From contig CM065648.1 of NCBI GenBank assembly GCA_033220425.1, positions 930,001-994,000 of the forward strand: a DNA stretch of 64,000 nucleotides. Direction: 5' to 3'. Of the stretch, positions 57,450-57,613 are shown piece after piece. The translations under genes were made by a program, and so were the position numbers. The notes below the pieces were generated by a model. The model saw only the letters and a list, made by a program, of their open reading frames with translations. It ran no database searches and was not told the DNA's origin. How positions within the stretch are numbered: the first letter of the stretch is position 1; the number at the start of each line of letters is the position of its first letter. This DNA is from Lepraria neglecta. Lineage: Eukaryota > Ascomycota > Lecanoromycetes > Lecanorales > Stereocaulaceae.

Positions 57450-57455
57450 AAAAAA
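57450..57455 (-). terminator. Pol III terminator of tRNA-Leu
   Basis: A run of six T on the tRNA strand, about 5 bases after the tRNA 3' end, the standard RNA polymerase III stop. Confidence 0.75.
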
Positions 57456-57502
57456 GATTTTGAGCGGAGTGGGATTCGAACCCACGCGGTCTCCCACTAC
57501 GG

Positions 57503-57529
57503 GGGCATTGAAGAGAAGCTCTACATTTA
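57503..57529 (-). other. Canonical anticodon-loop intron of tRNA-Leu
   Basis: 27 nt inserted after position 37 of the tRNA, the normal site cut by the Sen2-Sen34-Sen15-Sen54 endonuclease (Sen54 is encoded in this window). Confidence 0.75.
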
Positions 57530-57552
57530 CCTAAACGTAGCGCCATAACCAC

Positions 57553-57599
57553 CTGATTAAATAGTTAGAAATTTTCGATGAAAAGACCGGTTAACTTAC
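57553..57599 (-). other. 47-nt spliceosomal-type insert in the D-loop of tRNA-Leu
   Basis: Begins GTAAGT, contains TTTCTAACTATTT with the CTAAC branch consensus 11 nt before the end, and ends TTAATCAG. The length equals that of the pre-mRNA introns in neighbouring genes. The sequence right after it starts GT, so GT flanks both sides. Confidence 0.75.
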
Positions 57600-57613
57600 T
57601 CGGCCATCCGCCC

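Follow-up and report, generated by a model that had tools for sequence, protein, structure and literature searches.

In the Lepraria neglecta genome, no fewer than 17 nuclear tRNA genes carry at least 26 inserts that are, very probably, U2-type GT-AG spliceosomal introns of working genes. We base this reading on the sequence signals of the inserts, on the exact restoration of a cloverleaf when they are removed, on their recurrence, and on the lack of an uninterrupted copy of any of the 12 sequences tested. By the established teaching, only the Sen endonuclease deals with nuclear tRNA introns. Here the type of intron is a known one and its host is new: as far as we have seen, these are the first introns of this type in tRNA genes. 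Because at least 17 tRNA genes, including that of the initiator, carry mRNA-type introns, the organism probably needs its spliceosome for many of its tRNAs. It seems likely that the spliceosome acts here, and perhaps across the Lecanoromycetes, as an essential tRNA-processing machine, and that many isoacceptors (initiator Met and Asn among them) would arise only once one to four introns have left a Pol III transcript, so that the capacity for translation would depend on that for splicing.

Split tRNA genes and the signals of their introns

The window, which is the whole 64-kb stretch of DNA analysed (contig C3, 930001-994000), holds on its minus strand a tRNA-Leu(UAG) gene of 153 bp (57461..57613) with a mature form of 79 nt. 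Its first exon (57600..57613, 14 nt) runs from the acceptor 5′ strand to A14. Between A14 and G15, in the D-loop, lies a 47-nt intron of the GT-AG spliceosomal type (57553..57599; GTAAGT...CTAAC...CAG), whose branch-site-like CTAAC (57564..57568) is found 11 nt from the intron end. Exon 2 (57530..57552, 23 nt) comprises the remaining D-arm down to position 37, with the anticodon UAG. It is followed by an ordinary 37/38 intron of the splicing-endonuclease type (57503..57529, 27 nt; ARAGORN also sets a 27-nt intron there) and by exon 3 (57461..57502, 42 nt), which supplies the anticodon 3′ strand, the variable arm, the T-arm and the acceptor 3′ strand. On the same strand a T6 run resembling a Pol III terminator (57450..57455) stands 5 nt downstream of the gene.

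This architecture, a tRNA-Leu(UAG) with a 27-nt intron at 37/38 and a 47-nt GTAAGT/CTAAC/CAG insert in the D-loop, had been described in the first-pass annotation and is confirmed, on the minus strand. Its further claim that exact GT...AG removal restores a leucine tRNA holds as well, as ARAGORN calls the spliced 79-nt sequence tRNA-Leu(tag) once both introns are removed. With the gene unspliced, neither ARAGORN, run on the 64-kb window, nor Rfam at its gathering score reported a tRNA, and a lax Rfam search matched part of the gene only weakly, to tRNA-Sec (18 bits, E 0.7). The adjoining gene is ZPR1, for which the nearest among the named matches belong to lichen-forming Lecanoromycetes. When the 1909 internal deletions of 35-80 nt that this gene allows (12 of them GT...AG) were scored for cloverleaf fit, the proposed intron was among the 21 best-scoring, which taken alone is modest evidence. 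The strong evidence for the insert is the same pattern in 16 further tRNA genes.

Indeed, in the genome (42,023,604 bases in 11 contigs) we found 26 GT-AG inserts in 17 tRNA genes, one to four per gene, which supports the earlier proposal of a pre-mRNA-type intron in a Pol III-type gene. Giving each position as the last nucleotide of the mature sequence before the intron, single introns are found in Leu(UAG) (after 14), Glu(CUC) (48), Arg(CCU) (50), Arg(UCU) (44; L024), Tyr(GUA) (31), elongator Met (23; L097), Val(AAC) (27), Pro(UGG) (23), Ala(AGC) (58), Trp(CCA) (60; L028), initiator Met (4; L017) and Gln(UUG) (3). Two are found in Ser(GCU) (28 and 56) and Thr(UGU) (13 and 64), three in Ser(AGA) (24, 32 and 48) and Asn(GUU) (18, 27 and 46), and four in Leu(AAG) (11, 16, 28 and 58). 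Across the 17 genes they touch every arm of the cloverleaf, the acceptor stem included, and all the genes and inserts are present verbatim in the genome or the window. The genes outside the window were reached via T-arm and A-box matches, via B-box patterns and via the sequence on either side of weak Rfam tRNA matches. Heavily split genes are under-counted, because the search favoured whole T-arms and A-boxes and not every match was followed.

After intron removal, ARAGORN returned the expected isotype and anticodon for 17 of 17 genes, Pro(UGG) being recognised only with the end of its 37/38 intron shifted by one base. For the first 12 genes found, the unspliced sequence gave nothing in five cases and a wrong identity in seven; with the GT-AG introns out and the 37/38 intron kept, ARAGORN was right in ten of the 12 and misread Val and Pro. 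By manual reading, an ordinary 37/38 intron is also present in ten of the 17 split genes, the window gene among them. Several intron boundaries, including those of the initiator Met and Gln 5′ exons, were set by a reader aware of the GT-AG rule. The shortest internal exon measures 5 nt and lies between two GT-AG introns of Leu(AAG); the 5′ end of the second intron of this pair could be either GTACGC or GTGTAC. Compared by eye, spliced Ser(AGA) keeps in step with the genome's uninterrupted Ser(CGA) gene through the variable arm. The D-arm of Arg(UCU) is weak, and this gene might be decaying.

Two further features of these genes were noticed. In the anticodon stem of the spliced elongator Met (L097) and Arg(UCU) (L024) tRNAs, T seems to stand opposite T at 31-39. 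The Leu(AAG) 5′ exon, GGACAGATGGC, occurs twice, 135 nt apart, in L032 (C1:4272965-4273265, minus strand) and in an upstream copy; the two copies continue into different GT...CTAAC...AG stretches, an arrangement that amounts to a partial duplication involving exon 1 and an intron.

All 26 inserts begin with GT and end with AG. At the 5′ splice site, A or G is found at +3 in 21 of them, G at +5 in 25 and T at +6 in 17. The branch-site consensus of U2-type introns, CTRAY, is present 7-20 nt before the end of 22 introns, compared with a mean of 2.04 and a maximum of 8 in 5000 shuffles of the intron interiors; the other four are without it in the stretch tested. The Val intron and the second Ser(AGA) intron terminate in AAG. 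Intron length ranges from 47 to 63 nt, with a mean of 52.6. In size and ends the inserts match the mRNA introns that could be inferred within the window (n = 2), one from the reading frame of a pyrimidine-synthesis gene (37835->37778, minus strand; 58 nt, GTGAGC...CTGAC...TAG) and the other from proteins homologous to a P450 gene (48683-48735; 53 nt, GTAAGT...CAG, without CTRAY). The inserts are not copies of one another: among the 20 that belong to the first 12 genes the best pairwise match is only 10 nt, so that these give no sign of an introner family. Group I and group II introns were rejected as candidates, the inserts having 47-63 nt against a catalytic core of hundreds of nucleotides, such as that of group II introns. 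For group I introns, a passage of PMC10964413 gives a length of 250-500 nt.

In the deletion test, every internal stretch of 35-80 nt was removed in turn from the 12 single-insert genes and the remainder was scored for cloverleaf fit with our own scoring function, both ends of the gene and its 37/38 intron being fixed by hand. The GT-AG deletion was among the best-scoring in 11 of the 12 genes (best sets of 1 to 23 deletions). For Pro, Trp, initiator Met and Gln it was the sole best of 2323, 2875, 2829 and 2967 deletions, respectively, with 12, 22, 16 and 25 GT-AG deletions available. The equal-best sets held two deletions for Glu and for Val, four for Ala, seven for Tyr, 13 for Arg(UCU), 21 for Leu(UAG) and 23 for Met. 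Arg(CCU) is the exception, as three other deletions scored 36.3 versus 36.2 for the GT-AG one. The RNAfold minima of three spliced sequences were not cloverleaves (z -3.2, -2.4 and -1.3), which is common for unmodified tRNAs.

Probable transcription and proposed maturation of the split genes

The working split genes are probably transcribed by Pol III. All 17 are followed, 0-18 nt downstream, by four or more T in a row, and none of the 26 introns contains a run of five or more T, against a mean of 3.3 in shuffles, 2.3% of which likewise have none; both features fit Pol III transcription. The usual substrate of the spliceosome is Pol II RNA, and the introns could instead be spliced from Pol II transcripts, the tRNAs being excised from longer capped RNAs. 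The damage that the introns do to the internal promoter speaks for this alternative, since the A-box is split in the D-loop of Leu(UAG) and the T-loop (B-box) in Ala. We nevertheless consider it rather unlikely, given the T-runs behind every split gene and the introns free of T5 or longer. Furthermore, passages of two papers describe U6 as a Pol III RNA (PMC5709842) and as often interrupted by introns in fungi (PMC5832005).

If Pol III is indeed the polymerase, the broken A- and B-boxes pose a problem for TFIIIC, and expression must therefore tolerate the breaks or use upstream signals. Upstream A+T-rich stretches exist at the split genes, and loose TATA-like motifs are found within 60 nt upstream of 12 of 12 split genes and of 16 of 18 other genes, in a count made without a background control. 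We propose that Pol III would transcribe a split gene to the downstream T-run, that the U1 and U2 snRNPs and the spliceosome would excise the GT-AG intron or introns from this precursor before any cutting by Sen, and that the tRNA would fold after this removal. RNase P and RNase Z would then trim the ends, and the Sen endonuclease and a ligase would take out the 37/38 intron. As to their origin, the introns may have arisen by insertion such as reverse splicing, which is conjecture.

If the spliceosome must mature essential tRNAs in this way, its substrates would form a new class of tRNA intron. Spliceosomal introns would be able to spread through Pol III genes with a product of 72-82 nt, and the genes would offer a test of how the spliceosome handles exons of 3-12 nt. 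The same would explain why tRNA finders overlook genes in lichen fungi, and would make intron insertion datable in a setting without reading frames. It would also couple splicing directly to translation in organisms that grow slowly and tolerate desiccation, a connection that a passage of PMC8527467 puts forward for the rDNA introns of lichens.

Uninterrupted genes and known systems

The first-pass annotation had kept a dead tRNA copy as the alternative for the window gene, and had advised counting the other tRNA-Leu(UAG) genes. Genome searches with the T-arm, the A-box and the whole sequence brought up none, four A-box places being without a recognisable tRNA, and the 16 further split genes are equally tidy, so the dead-copy alternative is disfavoured. 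The Leu(UAG) T-arm has no second exact match in the genome, and the one match with three mismatches is that of Leu(AAG). A search for the Leu/Ser A-box with up to two mismatches gave 14 places in the genome and none in the control. We recognised none of these 14 as an intact gene for Leu(UAG), Leu(AAG), Ser(AGA) or Ser(GCU), and four of them (L041, L042, L043 and L045) are without an assignable tRNA.

Whole-sequence searches of the genome with the first 12 mature sequences brought up no uninterrupted copy, the only other match being Ser(CGA). Ten of the 12 queries recovered their own exons; Leu(AAG) and Ser(GCU) recovered nothing because their exons are short, so that this search, whose queries were without Ala, Trp, initiator Met, Gln and Thr, is imperfectly sensitive. 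Six yeast tRNAs used as bait (including Ala, Trp and Thr(AGU)) had no match in the genome.

We recognised 16 sound genes without a GT-AG insert (L002-L010, L012-L015, L018, L019 and L101), all accepted by ARAGORN; in L014, L015, L018 and L019 the 37/38 intron was placed by hand to obtain the stated isotype. One of them, L015 (C2:5471768-5471879), is Trp(cca) for ARAGORN and reads as Ile(UAU) once its 37/38 intron is placed manually. GT-AG introns are found in 17 of the 33 sound tRNA genes recognised, or in 17 of 36 when L011, L020 and L021 are counted as well. These three, uninterrupted and read by ARAGORN as Met, Gly and Tyr, respectively, were judged to be degenerate copies. L021 has the same anticodon as the split Tyr and a mismatch in the T-stem. 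L011, which likewise shares its anticodon with the split Met genes, has an initiator-like T-loop without the GGG/CCC anticodon-stem pairs that are present in the split initiator Met, and it adjoins a degenerate Asp-like copy. L021 and L011 weaken the claim for Tyr and Met. For Lys, Phe, Ile(AAU) and Asp, these searches of the genome gave no convincing gene, and we predict that their genes are also split.

Could the introns have entered genes that then died, while intact genes elsewhere serve in their place? The genome does contain degenerate-looking tRNAs as well as the uninterrupted Tyr and Met that ARAGORN accepts, and the 11-contig assembly may be incomplete. However, paired stems, anticodons and T-runs are kept in all 17 spliced products, the A-box places yielded no intact Leu or Ser gene of the four kinds sought (with the four places lacking an assignable tRNA), and a whole copy was found for none of the 12 mature sequences. 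Furthermore, no substitute is known for the Asn(GUU), Trp and initiator Met tRNAs, and a cell cannot do without Asn and Trp. That all 17 genes decayed at once is not credible, unless the assembly lacks some copies or the searches missed them, and we regard dead copies as a very unlikely explanation.

Working genes with spliceosomal introns, our preferred reading, can be set against several known systems. The nuclear rDNA introns of lichen-forming ascomycetes are likewise short GT-AG introns in a structural RNA that is not made by Pol II, and yeast spliceosomes excised a 57-bp intron of Cladonia grayi rDNA from Pol I transcripts (passages of PMC8527467). Those introns interrupt multicopy rRNA genes, whereas here many tRNA genes are affected, with up to four introns per 80-nt RNA and an internal exon of down to 5 nt. 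The introns of fungal U6 snRNA and U3 snoRNA are also spliceosomal introns in small structured RNAs, and a passage of PMC5832005 presents U3 and U6 as the only such RNAs known as often interrupted; there two kinds of gene are concerned, and in this genome a wide section of the tRNA set. The canonical eukaryotic 37/38 intron is shared by ten of the 17 split genes, but it stands beside the GT-AG introns and does not take their place.

Cyanidioschyzon merolae and archaea also have tRNA genes cut at several non-canonical places, but through bulge-helix-bulge motifs for the tRNA splicing endonuclease (a passage of PMC3978253), while in our inserts the motif is no commoner than by chance and GT-AG and branch signals are present. 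It is extremely unlikely that our inserts are ectopic introns of this kind, cut by Sen and GT-AG by accident: their D-, anticodon- and T-arm positions do resemble those described for C. merolae in passages of PMC9602550 and PMC3978253, but a crude 4-bp central-helix test at the exon-intron borders succeeded in 4 of 26 (about 4.3 expected by chance, at ~0.165 per intron), and GT-AG in 26 of 26 and CTRAY in 22 of 26 would be left unaccounted for.

A passage of the tRNAscan-SE 2.0 paper (PMC8450103) has eukaryotic tRNA genes limited to one intron. Among the top matches in open PMC papers, to which this search was confined, none reported tRNA genes with spliceosomal introns, and the word 'spliceosom' is absent from a review of tRNA introns. 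A table in PMC11353741 lists 47-65 tRNAs across seven lichen genomes, and 72 are reported for Endocarpon; published lichen tRNA counts may well be too low. The references of PMC11353741 include a chromosomal genome paper for Lepraria neglecta.

Search patterns and tRNA-like relics

Several patterns were without yield. A class-I D-arm pattern gave 17 matches (18 in the control), nine of which were inspected: three were known (Tyr, the Tyr-like L021 and Cys) and six (L105-L110) showed no tRNA. A pattern for the first half of the D-arm gave 30 matches (control 49), two in known genes and 28 with no new tRNA. Three B-box patterns matched no more often than their controls and only hand-picked matches were inspected; another gave 98 matches (control 79), a minority of which were inspected. 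The initiator-Met pattern had no match in the viral contigs searched, and ARAGORN finds no tRNA in L016.

About a dozen tRNA-like places, ambiguous or degenerate, were excluded from the gene counts (L016, L025, L027, L029/L037, L030, L041, L042, L043/L045, L079, L080, L099, L100 and L102). In L042, also recorded as L089 (C7:4489994-4490012, minus strand), a plausible acceptor strand leads into a good A-box of the Leu/Ser type, with no recognisable tRNA downstream; this place is possibly another split gene, or a relic. L079 (C6:2832472, minus strand) has a good T-arm and a long hairpin like a variable arm, without a recognisable anticodon arm, and is not resolvable as a GT-AG case.

Pairs or clusters that look like decaying copies or tRNA-derived repeats are found at L011 (C4:1152178-1152350), L020 (C8:2264667), L025/L027 (C5:1909226-1909632) and L029/L037 (C3:4629875-4630205). 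They consist of Asp- and Met-like, Gly-like, Cys-like and Leu-like copies, some of which ARAGORN accepts. A repeat family with GGTTCGATTCCTAATGGCGCTGGTACAATGGTGTTGCTG, a mimic of the B-box that does not look like a tRNA, occurs at about 20 places (e.g. C2:3011846, C4:1987215 and C7:92914), at times as two copies about 200 nt apart. Finally, L099 (C3:2212790-2213250) and L100 (C4:424410-424870) are related, partly degenerate tRNA-like copies, whose likeness seems to extend past the tRNA-like part, as if they had been duplicated.
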